From assembly GCF_002078875.1 (NCBI RefSeq), contig NC_034421.1, forward strand, positions 7,524,365-7,588,364: a stretch of DNA of 64,000 bases. Direction: 5' to 3'. Below are positions 27,900 through 55,529 of the stretch, piece after piece (position 1 is the stretch's first letter; each line of letters begins with the position of its first letter). The position numbers and the translations under genes were made by a program. The stretch comes from Numida meleagris (Eukaryota; Chordata; Aves; Galliformes; Numididae). The notes beneath the pieces were generated by a model. That model was not told the DNA's origin, did no database searches, and saw nothing but the letters and a program-made list of their open reading frames with translations.

Positions 27900-28720
27900 T
27901 TTAGCACACGGCCCACACCTGTGAGAGCCCACACCACGCCCCACGACGACCAGGACCACCCGCCCGCGCAGGGCTGAACCCCGCCCTCAGAGCCGGGCAC
28001 GCGCTTAACCCGGAGGAGCTCCGCGTTGCTTCGCTCCGGCAGCGCCACGCATGCCCAGCAGCGCCGCGGAGCCGTGCGGCCATGGCGGCCGCCGCGGGGC
28101 TGTGGGCGGAGGCGCGGGCGCTGCTGCCTGACACCGAGGAGGAGCTGAGCTTGGCGCTGAGCGGAGACGTGGACGACTGCGTCCCGCCGCTGCTGCTCCG
28201 CGCCCGCGGGCTGCTCTACGGGGCGGCTCCGCCGTGCGAGGAAGCGCTGCGGCGGCTGGGCGACGTCCTCCGCGACTACGCCTGGGAGAAGCTGAACGTG
28301 GGGCCGTGGCGGGACGTGAGCAAGGCCTGGCGGCAGGTCTACGCCTACGGCTGCCTCTTCGGCGCGCTGGCCGAGGTCGCCGCCCGCCGCCCGCTAGCGC
28401 CCGCCGTCCGGCTGTGCGACATGGGGCTGCTGATGGGTGCCTCCGTGCAGGACAACGTCCTCGTCCGGCTCGTCCGACTCTTGCAGGCGCACCTGCCCCG
28501 CGCCAAGCGGCGCAGCGCGGCCCCGGGCAGCGCCAAGGTACCGCCGGGCCGGGCCCCGGGTTCTGCGTTCCGCTCGGCCCGCCTCTTCCCGCGGGGCTCC
28601 TCGGTGGCCGCCGCCGAGGCCGTGAGGGGCTGACGGCGCTGACGGCGTTTCCACGGCGGCGTTCTGTTACAGAGGGCCCGGACTGACCCCCCTCCGGAGC
28701 CTGTTATACGGCCCGAGGAC
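27900..28720 (+). promoter_or_regulatory. CpG island promoter of KDM8
   Basis: The sequence changes abruptly from AT-rich to CpG-dense at about 27.9 kb and stays so through the first coding exon. Just upstream of the start codon is 'ccacgcatgcccagcagcgc', which resembles an NRF1-type site. There is no TATA box. The start codon context is 'gcggccATGGcg', a strong Kozak context with G at +4. The transcription start is probably within about 100 bases of 28082 but cannot be fixed by eye. Confidence 0.7.
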
Positions 28721-45823: not shown

Positions 45824-45931
45824 AATCTCAGCACAGCTTGCCTTCCTGAGCGCAGCCAGTGAAAATGATGGCAAGATTCCCTGCACTGTGTACCCTGTGG
45901 TTCCTTCTCTCTTCATATGCAACAGTTGAAG
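45824..45931 (+). other. IL4R: IL4R exon with start codon and signal peptide
   Basis: The acceptor is 'aatcttgttgcag' ending at 45823, followed by about 41 untranslated bases, then MMARFPALCTLWFLLSSYAT, a typical signal peptide with a hydrophobic core. The donor is 'gaag|gtacac' after 45931. At least one untranslated exon must lie upstream, most likely in the CpG island. Confidence 0.8.
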
Positions 45932-48900
45932 GTACACCTATGAATGTTCTTAAATTATTATACTTAAGTTTTTCCAGCAACTTTTTCTTGTGACTAGGAA
46001 TAACTAGCAGGCAACACTATTAACATTAAATAGTATAAAATCTCTAACCTCAAAAGCCAGAAATATCCATGTACTAAAATAAGTCTTAGATCTCTTTGTT
46101 TTATTGACCTTTTCCACATGGGCAAGAAAAAAATAGGAATTTGCAATAAGGAGAAACTGAGGTTTGGAAAGTCATCTCTCTGCTTCCCCGTTGCCTGATC
46201 TGTTCTGGGCACTGTGCTGCAAACAGGATGCTTGGCAGTGACCCAGCAACATCTCTGTAGAAATCTTGTAGGAGTCTCTTGTTTATTTCTATAGCTGCCA
46301 CTGCTTGCCATGTGCACTAACCAGCAATAGACCTGCGGGGACCTATGGGGGAAAAAAGCAGGAGCATATAGATCTGCTGTCAGCAGGCATCTGTCGGTCT
46401 GTGTTCTCCAAAGTGTGCAGTTAGAAGACTGAGTTGGCTGGATTTAAACAGATTTGGAGGACATTGTCTGTCAGACATTGTGTACAGGCACAAGGCAGAG
46501 TACAAGGACAGCTGACTTGCCTGTGGGGTCTTCTGTGTTCTTCTCTACACCTTTTTTGGTCTGGCAAAATGTGTAGCTGCATTAAGTCTTAGTGCTGCTT
46601 GTTAGTTAATGGCTCTTTTATGAAGTTCTTAATAAAGAGAAGTTATAAAGTCACGTTTTTCTGGCAGTGCGCCTTTATTCATTGAAAAATGAGTCTTACG
46701 TTTTACTTTCTGTAGCTTTTAAGTTGTGTCACAGAAATCTACAGTTTTTTTGGGTGTGTGTGTGTGTGCTAGTTTTTTAAAGCCAACCAAAACAGTTAAA
46801 GTAAAAAATAGCCTGTTCAAAAAAAAAAAACAACAAAAAAAAAAAAACCAAGATTTCTTAGCCATTTTCTTATATGCAGTGAGTTCAGACACGCTCCTAA
46901 TGCTGGGGGAATTTTTCAGTTTGAATTAATGAGAAGGATGAAGGTTTGTAAAGAACATATACTCTTGTCAGCTGATGTAGGTAGATTTGCTGTAAGTTAC
47001 CTTCGTCAACGTTTAATTTCACAGGTGCCCACCCCCCTGGTTAATGATATGTTTTAAGTTCCTTTGTATTCCAGTTGAGGATTAAAAAAACGAAATCCAG
47101 TGTTTCAGTTCCCTTTTCTAACTGCATGAACTGAAAGCAAACTCTTTACGGAATGTGGATGCAAAAGAAACTTCCCAGAGATTAGGTGTGTTTTTTTTTT
47201 TAAAAAGAAACTTTGTACCAGAGATGAGGAAGGGGAAAAGGTCACAGGAAGAGAGTACAGAAAATAATTCAGAGTGCTGGGAATTCATGAGCACCGTGAA
47301 AGGCAAGATAAACTGCTGATCAGCTTAATGCAGCAGGAAGAGCTTCATTTAATTCAGGTGTTCTCAAAATGGTAATGTTTCAGTATGTGAATGATAAAAT
47401 TTACCTTTAAATGGATTAGAATGTTAGTGTTTCTTTCAGAAGTCTATCTTAAAGTGAAAGTAAGGAAGACACAAACAGTAATAAAGGGCAGCACATTATA
47501 AACAGCAACAGGATAAATGGTAGTTCTTGTTTGAAATAAATGAGCTGTGTTAGTGTTGTAGTAGTGCAGATGCTGAGTCTTCAACTTGCTGCAGTTGGGA
47601 TGATTTTTGCTTTTGTCTCACTGGTTCACTTGTTTGGTGTGTTTTGTTGTTTGTTTTCCTTTGGTTTTGTTTGTCTTTGAAGAGCCATGGACGTTTCAGA
47701 ACAAAAGGGAGCAAACACCGTACTGCATGCAGGAAGGATACGAGTGATAGCTCTCATAGATTAGTTACGAGGGCAAGATATTTATCTTACGAAAAACACT
47801 TTCTAAATATCAAACAACAATGAAACCACAAACTGCAGCCAGCTCTAGGTTTATGCCAGTTGATGTATCAGACAACTTCTATCGTGATTTTCACTGACAA
47901 TGTGAATAATTCTTTGGCAATGTTGTACGTCCTCATTTGCATAAGTGAGCCTCGTTAACATTTCTGAGCTCATTCAGGTGATCCAGGACTCCTCGTTAAT
48001 GAAGTTTTATGGGAGGCTTTGTAGAAAGACAAGTGAAAGCGATGCGCGTGTGAAATGAGTGTGAGAGACCACATGCTGGTAGTGGTAAATGATTAAGTGT
48101 TTCTTTGAGTCGGATTTCTATTGAAGTACCACAGGATGCAGTGGTAAATCCTGTTGTTTGTGATGTACCAGTGCACCCCAAAGGGGAACTGACCATCGTA
48201 TGTATTGCGTTTGCAGATACTGCACTGTATCAGAGTGTGCATAAGCTGCATCAGAAAATACGACATAAAGGGACCACAGAAAAAGAGAAACGTGGGAGGA
48301 ATAGAATCAAATTAAGTACTTAGGAAAAGAAAAGCTTTTGCTTTGGAGGAATAATTTGAAACAGGCACCCACTGAGATAACTCCTGCAGTAGCTGGTGGG
48401 CCTTACAGGATGTGAATTGTTGGCAACTAATCATAAATTTGCAATGTAAATGACAAGAATGGAGAGTTAGTAATGTGCTAGGCCATGTGAGCAGGAATGT
48501 TTACATACTGCAGAGAAACCAAATCATGTATTTATATGGCCCTTGTGTAATTGTCAACAGAAAGCTTCTAGCAGTGTAAGTAAAGAAACTCCAAGAAAAA
48601 ATACCAATTAAAAGAATCCTGAAAACCAACCAAAGATATTCTAAGTTTTAATGGGGAATTGAGGGAGAGAAGAGTTAGATCTGCAGTGAGGAACTGTTGA
48701 AGGGAGGCAGAAGGTATGAGCTTAGGAAGCTTACAATCTTTGTAGATAAAGCATGAATTCAGGTGTGTAGGCAGTGAGCTTGGTCTGACTATTACTTGGC
48801 TGCATTTTGTCTTTTGAATTTAATTATTTTTTTAATGTTTTTGCTTTGTTCAATTTACTCATCTGATTTTCATGCATCTCATTATGTGTTGCTTCTCCTT

Positions 48901-51900
48901 AGTTATGGCTACAGAACACGTACAGGAATTTGCATGCTTCTCTGACTATGCCAGAGAGCTGGTTTGTCACTGGAAGGTGCCTCCACAGCTGAACTGCTCC
49001 AAGGAATTCCTGCTCTACTACGAGGTGGAGCTTCTTGCTCTCAGGTGAGTGCTTAATAAGATTTTCCTTCATTGTCATTGGAACTTTATGTATTCTATAG
49101 CCATTACTAGCTTTGATTCCATCCCTCTGCCATGGGTGCCTGGGACAAGATGTAGTCAGGGCTGACCTCATTGCCGGGAGGAAGATGTGTTCTGGAATTA
49201 ACATTATGCTCTGTTCAGTGGACTACTCTTCTGCAGACCTCCCTGCATTCTTGGCACAGAGTATTTGTCAAGTAGTGCTTGTAGAAGTGGTAGTGGTCTC
49301 ATAAGTGTACTGAACCTTCATTTCATGAGAAACCATGCATGATTTACGAGGCTGTAGCATGCAGTACAACTCATTGTTCACAGACTGTTTGCTGCCTTCT
49401 GCAGCAGGGGCTGTATTCTTGCCTTCTCCTACAGAGGAAGACAAGTCTGAGCCTTCCTGTTCCTCTCCATATGATTTCTCCAGAGAGACTTCCAAGTAAC
49501 CTTGCTGTGTACACTGCAATAAAACTGTTCCCATAATAGGAGGGCATGAGTCCATTCCTTCAGAGGTGGAGTATGTGATGAAGGTTGCTTTTAGGGTTAA
49601 CTTTTCTTATCTAGATTCTTAGCTTTTCATTAGTGGAACACCAAGGGGTGTCTGGGGAGGATGGAGGTTTGGAAGTTGTGAGGACTTAGCTTTGTTTTGG
49701 ATTTGTTTGGACTAAACATTTCTACAAACTGCATTTCTACAAAGCTTGCTTGTATCAGATTTGACTGGCTCCACACACTGGGAAGCTTGATGCCAACACT
49801 TTCAAGAAATAGCAGGCCATGCTGTGTAAACACTCGTATCGTTTTCTACCTGTTTTTCAGAAATGTGTGCCTCCCTGAGGATGGAAAAGAGAGTTTCACA
49901 TGCACTTGCACAATATATTCTGATTATTTTGTATCAGGCCTCAACTATATTCTAGCTCTACAGTTCAATGGGACCAGTGTGTGGAATTCCACTGTTAGAC
50001 CAGCCAAAGTTGGTAAGAAACTGTTTATTTTGTCACCAGGACATCTAGTTTCAGGCTTTGCAATCCTAGCTAACTCCTTGTTAGTGCTACCAGAAGAGTT
50101 TTCCTTAATAGATGTGGAAAACGTGAAATTTGTAATGCTGGCTTAAATGAGAAGTCCATTTGGCTTAGAAACCTGATTCTGAGTAGATTCTTAAGGGAAG
50201 AATACAAGTAATGGGGCAAGCAGAATGGTTCTCCCGCTAGCTTTACCCTCTCAGCTGCCAGCCATCCACAATTTGGGGGCTTACATGTGTATTTAGAGAA
50301 TTTCACTTGTTGCTGTAGAATTCAAGGATGAAGAGGAAGGCACTACTTCCAGTTTCTAGAATGCTAAGCTATCCCTACTGAAATTCTTCCATTCCTGTCT
50401 CTGTCATCTTCTGATGATTAAAAAGTTAATGACCCTGCTCTTTCACAGGACAAAGCATAGATACAGTTCCTATTTCTCTGTCAGCACCTGGTTTGTTTAA
50501 GCCAATATGTGTTTGTAACACTGTCACCTCAAACACTCAGAAGTCATTCACATGCCTTGGGCAGACGTTCATCTACAGTGATGGTCTGATTTTTTTCCTA
50601 CCTGATGTCACTGTGACTCACCAGCAGAATAAGCAGGAGCCTGCATCAGTTTCTAAGACACAGGTAGCCAGGACTGTCTGACTGCAAAGTGGTGAGAAGT
50701 TGTATGCCCACCATATGGCACAGCATGTTATTGTGAGGGTGCGGGTTGTCACCGTTTCCTCAGATTGGAAGCTGCATTCAGTGCAGCAAAAGTAGAATTT
50801 GAAGTTTCTTCAGCCAGCCTGAATTTTCAGTGCTTGTTGATGAATACCTCACAGTTGTGCTGTTTTGGCCTCTGTATCCTTGCACTAGAGCTTAGTGAAA
50901 AGGGCTGAAATGCATCAACTCAGACATTTTGGCCTCTGGTGAATGTTTTTTGTCTCTGCTTCTTTCCACCAGCACTTCTACATTGTCATGTTCCCCTTAA
51001 TTGTATTTTTTTTTTTTAAACTTACAGTTAAGCCAAGGGCTCCCAAAAATCTTGCCGTTGAGAAATCTGAGAATGGTAATTTCAATCTGAGCTGGGAGGA
51101 GAGCTACACTGATTCATCTGTACTTTTTGGACAGTCAGTCATCTATGAAGTAAAATACTGGAGCAAGCAGCGCCCAGGACAGGTAAGAGACAGCTCGTCT
51201 CATTTTCTATCGCTGGAGCTTCAAGGTCCAAAAGTCTTGAAGGACTTTGAAACCATTTCATGAACAATGGTGTAAGGGCCAGCGAGGGCAAGCCCCACAC
51301 TGTTTCTGAGCACATACTTTGTGTTGGTCTCATTCCCAAGTCAGTTCAGACAGGGCCTTAAAGGACTGGAACTTTCCTGACTACTGCCCCAAAGGGACCA
51401 GCTGCTCACAGGGAGACAGGGTGGAGACTGGAAAATACAATGCTTCTGTTACCTGACTTCGGGAAGCTGGAGGCAGTTTGTGACACTGGTGCACTTGAGA
51501 CATTTCAAACACCCTTCTGATCTCTGCAGCATTGTAGGGCAGGGCTTATTCTGCGAGGGGAAGAACGTGTGTGGTGGCATGTCAAAAATATGACCCCTTC
51601 ATGACAGCACAATAGCACATAGCGAATAATGTGTGCAGTCATTCACTTGCTCGTTTATGAAAGGTCACAGAAATGTATAACACAGTTGGTATCTAATTAC
51701 TGTCACAAGCCCTACTCCCCATAAAGAAATCAGTGACCTCTTACTTTATAACCTTCTTTTCAGGTTTCTGTGGTCCCAGTTAGCTACCAGACAAGAAGCT
51801 TTGAAATTACTGCAAGCTTCTTGCAGAGAGGCTATGATTACACTGCAAGTGTACGGTGTAAGTATGTAGAATACCCAGCCTACTGGAGTGACTGGAGTGA

Positions 51901-54900
51901 TGGAGTTGAGTTTCACTATGGTAAGTATTATAACTAATCACAGCTTGGTATAAGAAGAGATATTTAAACTTAAATAAATAAAAGCAAGTGGGTATAAATG
52001 AGCAAGAGACAACTGAGTGGAAAATTAAGCAATACTTCCATCATTAGAGGGGTGAGGCTCTAAAAATAGTATTTCCGAAGAGCAGCAGAGAAGGCAAGAA
52101 GCACAGCTGCACTACAGTTCCGTTCCAGGGACTACACGATGGGTTTGTTTCTGAGGGCTGACAAATGGCTTCACAATACACGTGGCTGTCCCAGTTCCTA
52201 AATCACTGATGGTAGGAAACTGAGGTATCTGCGTTGACCTTTAGATGTGACACACGCCACTGGCACTGGTAGCTGTGTACGTTCTGTTGTTTATCTGCAA
52301 AGGCTTTGCTTTACATCCTTTAAAGTAGTGTTATTTTGGTGTTGGATTAGGTATTGTTAGTACATGTATATGCACATGCATATGTAAATATACCTATTTA
52401 TTTAATAGATCATCAAGTAACATCTGAAGACATCCTGCAGATGGCTGTTCCTGTATCTTGCATCCTGATCATGGCAGTAGCTGTAATTTGTTATTTCTGT
52501 TTTGCCAAGTAAGTGTCATACTGTTCGTGGGCTTTAGAGACAAACACTTCACACAGATATCAGTATTGCAGTTGCTTAGCTGAATGTCTAGTAATACAGG
52601 AATCTAATGATTTTTCCTTAGCACCTTTATCTCAAATTCTGTGTGCAAACATCTTTTAAACATGAATCTGCTGCACTCTGTCATTTTCTGAAAAGACTGA
52701 GTGTTTTCTACTAATCTCACTAGAATGGGCTTGTTACAGCATTAAAATAGGCTGTAGCTATGGGTCTTTTAGTTTTGAATCTCAGTCTTTGCTGGAGTTC
52801 CAGTAATGATGGCTGAATACGTGTATTTCTTTTTACATTTTTAGTGGCAATATGAAAGTGGGATCCTGTCTGTTTCACATGTCATTTTAAGGGTGATTGG
52901 AAGAACTTGTGACTGTGGTTGTGTAGAGCAGTCATACACAAAACATAAAGTTAGTGCAAATATGTTTATGAAAAGCAGCATTTGGAGATGCAGAGAACAA
53001 GTACTTCCCTCTTCTGCTCTAGGAAGTGTATGCTGATCAAGCCAAAATTCAGTTAAAGCAAACAATTTTCATTCTTGTCTTGCAGAGTGAAGAAAGAATG
53101 GTGGGATCAAATCCCAAACCCAGCAAAGAGCCATTTGGTTGTAAAAAATGTCAAGGTAATATAAGATCTTTGCAAAATATACCTTTTCCTGATCACCAGA
53201 AATGGAATACGAAATATGTGCTCTTGGCTGGCTAGTGTGGGAAATACTAAAAACATTTTGGGTGTCCTAAAATTTCTCTCTGTTTTACTAGTTTTCAGTC
53301 TTGAGCTACATTGATGAAATGAAGTTCCCTTTCTATGATTCGAAGCAGAGTCACATGGAAAAGCAAACGTAAGTAAGATAAATGGAATGAAGTGACAACC
53401 TCTGCTTTACAGCATAAAATATTTTCCTATTACATAAACATTCTGTCCTTTCCTTTTTTGTTTCAAAAAACAGAAGCTGCAAGAACTGTCTGGCTCAGAG
53501 TTTGTCAAGCCAAAACTTCAAGGAAAAAGATAACATCAGTAACATTGAGAAATCTTGCAGTTGCTGCAACAAGCCTGGAGAGTGGTTTCCAAAAGGCATT
53601 AATGCAGTTTTAACCCCTGAGACTGTTCTTGTTGAAGAGTCTGTAGAAATCTGTGAGTGTTTAACAGACATTGAGGCGGAGAGCCAGGAAAAGACCAGCG
53701 ACCAGATCGCCGTATTTGGGTCTTGTGAGTGCAGTGTCAGCCCTCTCAGAGAGCACACTGAGCACAATGATGCACTAGCTAACATGTTCATGGAGCTCTT
53801 GGCAGATGAAAAAGGCATGCAAGATGATAAAGAGCCAGGCATTATTACAAGTGAAAATAAAACCTTCCAGAAACTTGAGTCAGAAAATCCTTCTCAAAAA
53901 AATCCAAAAGTAAGTGCAGTCCAGAGTCAGCAGTCACAGTCAGCTTCTCATTTCACGGAAGCCTCTCAGGATGAGTACAATTGCAGTACAACCAGCAAGA
54001 AGTCAGCACAATCAGAAGAATCCTTTGAATCTGGCTATCGGAGCTCCAGCACAAATTCTGCTTCTCTGGATGCAAGAGATAGTCCCTGTATGCTTCAACA
54101 AAGCCTTTTGCCATGCAGTTCTGAAAGTCAGCATGACTCATCTGTGCTTATTTGGGAATCTCTAAATAAACCAGCCTTTGAAGGAATAAGCAGCCCTGCA
54201 TACAAGAGCTTTGATACCCTCATATCTCCACCTGTGGAGCCCTGTAGCTCTGCATACAAGAGCTTTGATGCCATAATGTCTCCATCTGCGGAGCCTTGTG
54301 GCTCTGCATACAAGAGCTTGGACACCCTTATGTGTCCATCTGTGGAGCCCTGTGGGTCTGCATACAAGAGCTTTGATGCCTTAGTGTCTCCATCTGTGGA
54401 GCCCTGTGGCTCTGCATACAAGAGCTTGGACACCCCTGTGTCTCCATCTGTGGAGTCCTGTGGCTCTGCATACAAGAGCTTTGATGCCCTAATGTCTCAG
54501 TCTGTGGCTAACAGTAGCTTGAATATGCATTTTGAAAATATGTGCTCCTTACCATCTTTAACCCCGTCTTCAGAGACACATGCAAACGATGGAGTTTCAG
54601 CTTTCCTACCAGAGGAGGAAATTCATAAGCAAGCAACGTATCAAAATCTTCAAAAGGAAGGCAGCGTGCTTTCTTGCCCTGCTGGACTTCAGCCATCTGG
54701 TTATAAACCTTTTGATGCTGCAGTTAAATGTAGTGGGGCGCAATTTGACAATAGCAGCGAGGTTATCTCAGAGTCACTGTGCGAACCCTTAGTTCATCTT
54801 CTGTACAACAGCCTGAGAGAAACACCTCCAGGTAACATAATCTGTGAACCTGACCAGCAGACAGATGGCCATGTGTGTTTGATTGCACAGGACTTCCATT

Positions 54901-55529
54901 CTGGCATTGCCCCAGGTGTAGGCTCTAGTGAGAAAGTCACACACAGTAGTAGTGATGACAGCCTTTCGATTGTCAGCTCTAATGAGCTGTTAAGCGATAA
55001 TGGAGATGAAAACACCAGCAGAGACAAACAGCTGTCTCATTTCTTAGAGCTGAACTGTCAAGATTTTAATGGAGAGAGAACTATAAAGGAAACAAAACAT
55101 AATGACTTTAACTGTTGTGAAGGAGTGGAAGGGAGCAGCAGTAACAGAATAAATCCTGACTTCCAGCGTGCCCCACACAACCATTTGAGGAAGTTTGGAA
55201 ATGCAGAGGAAAAAAAAGGGGTGGCAAACAGAAGGTGTAGCTCAGCTAACGTACCTGAAGAAGCACCGGACAGCATTGTGCTAGCCTTAAAAACTGCGGA
55301 AGAGCCCCTGGAGCTCTTGGTCTCAGACGAGTTGTCAGCTCCTCTTTGTGCAGATAACCCTCATCCTTCTGATTCTCACACCACTTGCACTGGGAGTTCC
55401 GGTCTGGCACCTGCAGTTAAAAAAAGCCCATCAGAACTATTAAGGGAAAACAACAAGAAGAACGAGAAAAAAGTTAAACTTCTACAAGCTCTTGCCCAGG
55501 AGGACAGCTGTTACATGAAGGTCGCCTAG
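45865..55529 (+). CDS. IL4R: interleukin-4 receptor alpha chain, complete coding region
   Basis: Nine coding exons join in frame: 45865-45931, 48903-49044, 49861-50012, 51028-51182, 51764-51920, 52409-52508, 53086-53155, 53292-53368 and 53474-55529 (stop TAG), giving 991 residues (human 825). The protein binds IL-4 with the common gamma chain or, with IL13RA1, IL-4/IL-13, and signals through JAK1 and STAT6. Seen in order: signal peptide (1 to about 20); cytokine-receptor domain 1 with six cysteines (34, 44, 54, 73, 84, 86) and sequons at N53, N106 and N112; domain 2 from VKPRAPKNL (121) to the WSDWS box (213-217); membrane span about 236-257; Box 1 in VKKEWWDQIPNPA (259-271), almost identical to human; then the last exon with a six-unit AYKS(F/L) tandem repeat (Tyr 550-640), GYKPF (Tyr717), LLYNSL (Tyr751) and the conserved C-terminus YMKVA (human YMRVS). 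The start is the first of two adjacent ATGs at 45865. The extra length is in the cytoplasmic tail, which is otherwise poorly conserved. Confidence 0.95.
45932..48902 (+). other. IL4R intron after the signal-peptide exon
   Basis: A 3-kb intron with a (GT)n tract (46754-46768), an A-rich run (about 46819-46850) and a T-run near 47190. No other exon or transposon was recognised. Confidence 0.6.
46754..46850. repeat. (GT)n and A-rich simple repeats
   Basis: GTGTGTGTGTGTGTG is followed about 50 bases later by an 11-base A run, CAACA and a 12-base A run. These are simple sequence. Confidence 0.8.
54198..54518 (+). repeat. IL4R: six-unit 54-base in-frame tandem repeat in the IL4R cytoplasmic tail
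   Basis: GCATACAAGAGCTT(T/G)GA recurs at exactly 54-base spacing: the Tyr codons begin at 54201, 54255, 54309, 54363, 54417 and 54471. Each unit encodes 18 residues of the type AYKSFDALVSPSVEPCGS. Position 5 alternates F, F, L, F, L, F. The last unit degenerates after MSQSV. The motif resembles the tyrosine sites of mammalian IL4R (NPAYRSF for IRS, and GYKAF/GYKPF for STAT6). The first unit is preceded by SSP, like the NPAY context. The array is in the expected place in the tail but the copy number is expanded. Confidence 0.95.
54699..54713 (+). other. IL4R: conserved GYKPF STAT6-type docking motif
   Basis: The motif encodes GYKPF with Tyr717, identical to one of the human STAT6 recruitment sites (GYKPF in mammalian IL4R), followed by DAAVKC. 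It confirms that the tail is orthologous and anchors the neighbouring tandem repeat as a variation on the same motif. Confidence 0.85.
54798..54815 (+). other. IL4R: ITIM-like motif LLYNSL
   Basis: Residues 749-754 fit the ITIM consensus (I/V/L)-x-Y-x-x-(I/V/L), with Tyr751. The human tail has an ITIM (IVYSAL) in the corresponding distal region, which recruits SH2 phosphatases such as SHP-1. The match is by position and consensus, so function is inferred. Confidence 0.65.

Follow-up and report, generated by a model that had tools for sequence, protein, structure and literature searches.

A length-variable tandem array of candidate phosphotyrosine-docking units in the interleukin-4 receptor tail of birds and reptiles

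Type 2 immunity has its gateway in the interleukin-4 receptor (IL4R), whose intracellular tail in mammals offers tyrosine motifs to several partners. According to the available text of PMC5962649, STAT6 docks at GYKxF motifs, any one of three being enough; the accessible parts of two further papers list the STAT6 motif as Y..F (PMC7444064) and describe the STAT6 probe peptide GpYKPFQDL (PMC5589592). Docking of IRS proteins through their PTB domain centers on an NPXY core within PL-(X)4-NPXYXSXSD, and the human IRS site, PAYRSF, is described as independent of STAT6 docking (PMC5962649, available text). The human tail, as printed in the accessible part of PMC7444064, presents these motifs in the order NPAYRSF, GYQEF, GYKAF and GYKPF, with one unit of the NPAYRSF type.

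The window (the whole 64,000-nucleotide stretch of Numida meleagris DNA analyzed) contains an open reading frame at 53418–55529 that spans the tail region of this receptor, and protein searches matched the tail reading frame at 53472–55526 with 100% identity to N. meleagris interleukin-4 receptor subunit alpha (IL4R). From the reading frame, this identity and tblastn of the Numida IL4R protein (P0001) against the window, we place the last coding exon, which encodes the bulk of the intracellular tail and includes the stop codon, at 53472–55529 on the forward strand, its start being set from sequence; tblastn also places the upstream IL4R exons at 45865–53155. P0001 carries the Pfam domain IL4Ra_N (PF09238, E = 2.2e-28), which identifies it as IL4R. 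A KDM8 N-terminal domain match (PF24472, E = 1.2e-13) in the reading frame at 27905–28633 marks a neighboring gene upstream of IL4R.

Within the tail exon, six head-to-tail in-frame 54-base units, phased from Y-3, occupy 54192–54515 with zero indels. Tandem Repeats Finder, run with a score threshold of 50, reports a single array at 54196–54507 with a period of 54 (5.8 copies, 84% matches, score 449); read with a period of 108, this stretch has 89% matches and scores 498. Both scores lie far beyond chance. The two read-outs confirm the six-unit, 54-base array of the original prediction, whose coordinates, 54198–54518, were correct to a few bases. Unit 1 (SPAYKSFDTLISPPVEPC, 54192–54245) aligns where mammals have the I4R motif (NPAYRSF); it is followed on the same, forward strand by unit 2 (SSAYKSFDAIMSPSAEPC, 54246–54299), unit 3 (GSAYKSLDTLMCPSVEPC, 54300–54353, with L at Y+3), unit 4 (GSAYKSFDALVSPSVEPC, 54354–54407), unit 5 (GSAYKSLDTPVSPSVESC, 54408–54461, again with L at Y+3) and unit 6 (GSAYKSFDALMSQSVANS, 54462–54515), the last being the conserved terminal unit according to the conservation counts and tree described below. 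The unit cores read, in order, SPAYKSF, SSAYKSF, GSAYKSL, GSAYKSF, GSAYKSL and GSAYKSF, so that the earlier description as AYKSF or AYKSL was exact, with four F and two L. The consensus is [SG][SP]AYKS[FL]D plus ten residues, with Cys at the end (Ser in the last unit), and the acidic residues noted after the motif can be specified as D at +4 in all six units and E at +12 in only five of them. All six units use the same codons for A-Y-K-S, even at silent positions, although silent sites are few. At the DNA level, units 3 and 5 share 93% identity; this and the 108-base period point to a past duplication of a two-unit block. Two further sites lie downstream on the forward strand: distal site A, YKPF (54702–54713, residue Y717), aligned to echidna SGYRCF, and distal site B (54780–54782, residue 743), which is Tyr in most birds (LYEPF type) and aligned to echidna EYKSF, and where Numida has lost the tyrosine and carries Cys.

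AlphaFold2 predicted the array with pLDDT values below 50 and without secondary structure, which suggests that this region is disordered; an ordered repeat fold was rejected on the same prediction. Helices were predicted in the tail only at residues 92–113 and 653–684 (tail numbering). The C-terminal 32 tail residues (window 55428–55523), predicted as a helix with a block pLDDT of 79–94, form the sole confident long element of the tail.

Protein searches yielded 107 distinct proteins, this gene's own record among them (106 sauropsid proteins and one from echidna); they are 90%-cluster representatives and not independent species, Falco naumanni and Chelonia mydas being among the species present twice. 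The original prediction had called for units to be counted across birds and reptiles, and a profile scan found 2–15 of them in 104 of the 106 sauropsid proteins and one in echidna. The two bird proteins without the array (P0104 and P0105, 439–440 residues) stop about 100 residues before its place. The array had been regarded as a bird feature, which is too narrow, because turtles, crocodile and tuatara carry it too. The 104 array proteins hold 567 units, 492 of them with the tyrosine and all in exact 18-residue phase, units having been chained in 18-residue steps; a separate off-phase scan retrieved the distal GYK[PS]F site alone, in five proteins. Unit number is 3–11 in the 96 bird proteins (median 5), 2–4 in six turtle proteins, 11 in Crocodylus porosus and 15 in the tuatara. 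Lepidosaurs are represented by the tuatara alone, monotremes by echidna, and therians by the human sequence, read as printed in PMC7444064. No squamates and no mammals other than echidna were returned by the protein searches, an absence that proves nothing at their limited recall (one of them missed P0100 and P0096 of the query alignment).

Copy number changes 47 times on the 100-row gene tree and 42 times on birds alone. A Gallus-like protein (P0008) has three units against six in the chicken record (P0002), with 54 gap positions and about 98% identity outside the gaps; the difference may reflect a length allele, another junglefowl or a short-read or assembly collapse. In the bamboo partridge, the protein (P0026) contains four units, compared with the chicken's six. 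P0035, from Apus apus, is named interleukin-21 receptor, yet it has IL4Ra_N and the IL4R tail array, and the record is probably misnamed.

Among 441 tyrosine-bearing units outside Galliformes, the residue at Y+3 is F in 334, C in 102, Y in 3, I in 1 and S in 1, and never L, V or M; among 51 such units in Galliformes, it is F in 33, L in 11, S in 3, V in 3 and I in 1. The galliform usage would suit endocytic YxxPhi (AP-2) signals that set receptor internalization and that phosphorylation would turn off, and both YKSF and YKSL match Y..[LMVIF], a pattern listed for these receptors in the accessible part of PMC7444064. Free use of L, M, V, I and F at +3 is, however, not what the units outside Galliformes display, and S at +2, invariant in the last two units, together with further conserved positions, extends beyond a four-residue signal. 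We consider an endocytic role quite unlikely: with F or C in 436 of 441 units outside Galliformes and never L, a STAT6-type YxxF motif fits better than YxxPhi.

In Numida, the Y-K-x-F core is present in four of the six units and at distal Y717, the other two units having L at +3. At least two Y[KR]xF units are retained in 94 of 96 birds, F occupies +3 of the last unit in 95 of 96, and in 27 of 96 the residue at +1 of the penultimate unit is R. Speaking against STAT6, the G of GYKxF at −1 is replaced by A in all six Numida units, which places them nearer to human PAYRSF at this position; because this nearest human sequence is an IRS site, resemblance alone cannot settle STAT6 binding.

Cysteine at +3 occurs, with the tyrosine kept, in 102 of 492 tyrosine-bearing units. 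Middle units of the AYKSC type are frequent in non-galliform birds (P0009, P0011, P0035 and others); 20 of 96 birds have at least two C(+3) units, and seven such units, all with tyrosine, are present in each of Tyto alba (P0011) and Apus apus (P0035). Judged by sequence, such units should bind STAT6 poorly, and they are either weak or decoy sites or a sign that another reader is involved. Since the tyrosine is kept in 99 of 103 C(+3) units counted in tree rows, a partner without need for F at +3 is possible. The array would in that case dock another phosphotyrosine reader (for example of SHP, SOCS, Shc or DOK type), distal site A would mainly serve STAT6, and YKSC units would share the role of the others. 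Site A does retain its tyrosine in 94 of the 98 rows scored, and the available text of PMC5962649 reports that the I4R region also docks Shc, FRIP1 and p62DOK, but the near-fixation of F at +3 in the last unit resembles YxxF STAT6 sites, and we regard another reader as unlikely.

Constraint was counted on proteins only, using FastTree gene trees. The main tree comprises 100 sauropsid rows; four array-bearing proteins shorter than 600 residues (P0026, P0092, P0094 and P0098) were omitted from the trees and column-change counts and kept in the bird conservation counts and Y+3 tallies. Tuatara, crocodile and echidna are long branches, and we recounted changes on a tree of 92 birds, of which the 90 with at least four units were scored. 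Counted over the 96 bird proteins, first units retain the tyrosine in 28 cases, middle units in 230 of 234, penultimate units in 95 and last units in 94. On the 100-row tree, its column shows one change in the penultimate unit and two in the last, compared with a median of 8 for the 493 other tail columns, while S at +2 changes in neither unit and F at +3 changes once in the last and seven times in the penultimate unit. When the 18 columns of a unit are ranked from the least changed in the birds-only recount, the tyrosine comes first (tied) in the second unit, second in the penultimate, third in the last and 16th in the first; on the same tree, F at +3 of the second unit changes 11 times. Tyrosines of this tail are not conserved by default, since the first-unit tyrosine column undergoes 21 residue changes on the 100-row tree (8 if scored as Y or not Y) and that of site B 14. 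Residue 730 changes 12 times, and Y475 and Y495 once each. Other tail motifs match the unit tyrosines in conservation, with 54 of 493 tail columns changing at most twice.

At the position where mammals dock IRS, 68 of 96 birds have H, D, Q, R, C, N, L or P instead of the first-unit tyrosine, in a unit that is otherwise still recognizable. Compensation between loss of site B and intact units was not detected: the raw mean numbers of intact units lean in that direction (4.20 in 20 losers of site B, 3.15 in 67 keepers), but independent pairs, too few of them informative for adequate power, gave a median p of 1.

The 47 copy-number changes, and middle units that are more alike within a protein (identity 0.86) than between proteins (0.75), are what neutral minisatellite growth in a disordered linker would produce, young copies making the tyrosines look conserved. 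The last two units, in contrast, are distinct orthologous units and not homogenized copies: identity is 0.76 between the last units of different proteins and 0.55 between the last and penultimate units inside one protein. As these two units are orthologous, the constraint on the unit tyrosines looks like selection and not recent copying. With their Y and S near-fixed amid variable neighbors, and with the first-unit tyrosine free to drift, we give little credence to neutral growth.

Elsewhere in the tail, an ESGYxS motif (EESFESGYRSS in Numida, residues 488–498, window 54015–54047) is found in 102 of 107 proteins, echidna included, with columns that rank among the best conserved in the distal tail. 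It presumably resembles a DSGxxS phosphodegron. ESGY was not seen in the human tail in the form printed in the accessible part of PMC7444064.

The position of the array points to its source. In the alignment, the single echidna unit, NPAYRSFSALLAQS (the NPAYRSF unit), coincides with the first array unit, upstream of the distal sites, where echidna SGYRCF aligns to bird site A (GYQPF) and echidna EYKSF to site B (LYEPF). Given one unit in echidna at the aligned place and one in human, the array was probably made by duplicating an ancestral I4R (Y497-type) unit. The amniote ancestor would have had a single such unit, the first 54-base duplication would most simply be placed on the sauropsid stem, and later growth and shrinkage would have proceeded by unequal exchange of whole 54-base units; alternatively, duplications of the same length may have arisen independently. 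An I4R-like ancestor (echidna NPAYRSF) and the NPxY found in 8 of 11 crocodile and 2 of 15 tuatara units would agree with an array of IRS PTB-docking sites, but the whole Numida protein contains no NPxY, on which ground an IRS array was rejected for this species, only 5 of 96 bird arrays contain one, and the first-unit tyrosine is missing in the 68 birds mentioned above. We therefore judge IRS docking of the array highly improbable. It cannot be claimed for Numida, and with NPxY so rare, most of the birds examined lack a mammalian-type IRS dock.

The original prediction had read the repeated tyrosines as docking sites for adaptors or STATs. The IRS part of that reading fails on the missing NPxY; the tyrosine-docking part gains from the constraint on Y, the predominance of F at Y+3 and the alignment to the I4R place, and a phosphotyrosine-docking array is, with partial support, the best reading of the repeat. 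We lean slightly towards a specific form of it, in which the array constitutes tandem STAT6-type phosphotyrosine-docking sites in the disordered IL-4R alpha tail, derived from one duplicated ancestral I4R-type unit. Phosphorylation, and STAT6 as the partner, are what we infer here: on binding of IL-4 or IL-13, the unit tyrosines would become substrates of JAK1, and STAT6 would dock by its SH2 domain at the YKxF units, which would supplement or take the place of scattered distal sites of the mammalian type. More units would then give stronger or longer STAT6 activation. A broader account, possible but doubtful in our estimation, is that sauropsids converted one IRS-type dock into a tunable, length-variable STAT6-type array that rewired IL-4 receptor output, most birds losing the NPxY tyrosine and one distal site decaying, with unit number setting signal strength and perhaps varying within species.

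The array also touches on published selection data. Downing et al. (2009; PMC3224688) resequenced IL4R in chickens and relatives, and we mapped the numbering in the available text to P0002 with an offset of 116, at which 29 of the 31 residues compared agree (the comparison leaves aside the row for position 70). Seven of the 29 rows of their Table 2 fall inside the array, and unit 3 contains the chicken differences S590G and L594R. The 48 sites given there as 9.8% imply a total near 490 codons; as the array would make up some 22% of these, seven of 29 represents no enrichment of the published selected sites, and we rejected that idea. The words "repeat", "indel" and "tandem" were not found in the main text of PMC3224688 as available, and since unit number differs between bamboo partridge (P0026, four) and chicken (six), codons in this region may have been matched across non-orthologous units. 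Reports of positive selection in chicken IL4R, as far as this text presents them, thus include array sites whose unit orthology is uncertain, and should be read with that caution. A description of the array was not found in the literature searched, a scope outside which most subscription papers fall; the string AYKSF occurred there in one paper, on a Streptococcus transcriptome.

These sequence comparisons suggest that birds and reptiles multiplied a signaling dock, and what appears to be new is the conversion of a docking site in a receptor to a tandem array that is constrained yet length-variable. Should STAT6 dock at the units, a natural copy-number series, from 2 to 15, for studying extra redundant docking sites would be available in birds and reptiles, and most birds would be without the mammalian IRS dock.

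Set beside known systems, as far as the available sources describe them, the array has a close counterpart in the mammalian GYKxF STAT6 sites (in human GYQEF, GYKAF and GYKPF, which we take to be Y575, Y603 and Y631): both belong to the same protein, lie in a disordered tail, share a Y-K-x-F core and are redundant. The human sites are three and dispersed, whereas the sauropsid array is tandem and exactly phased, has A before Y and stands at the I4R position. With the mammalian I4R motif (Y497, IRS docking), the array shares the aligned position, by way of echidna, and the PAY[KR]SF core, by way of human; that motif is single in echidna and human, in contrast to the 2–15 copies of the array, from which NPxY is missing in Numida, as it is in 91 of 96 bird arrays. 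A third likeness is to the EPIYA-C repeats of Helicobacter pylori CagA, which dock SHP2 and likewise multiply a tyrosine-docking segment in tandem within a disordered tail. STAT6 has one SH2 domain and SHP2 a tandem pair, and the steep avidity of the CagA type may for this reason not carry over to the array. CagA is an unrelated bacterial protein, its partner SHP2 has tandem SH2 domains, and duplication of EPIYA-C raises SHP2 binding over a hundredfold (PMC4623810, available text).
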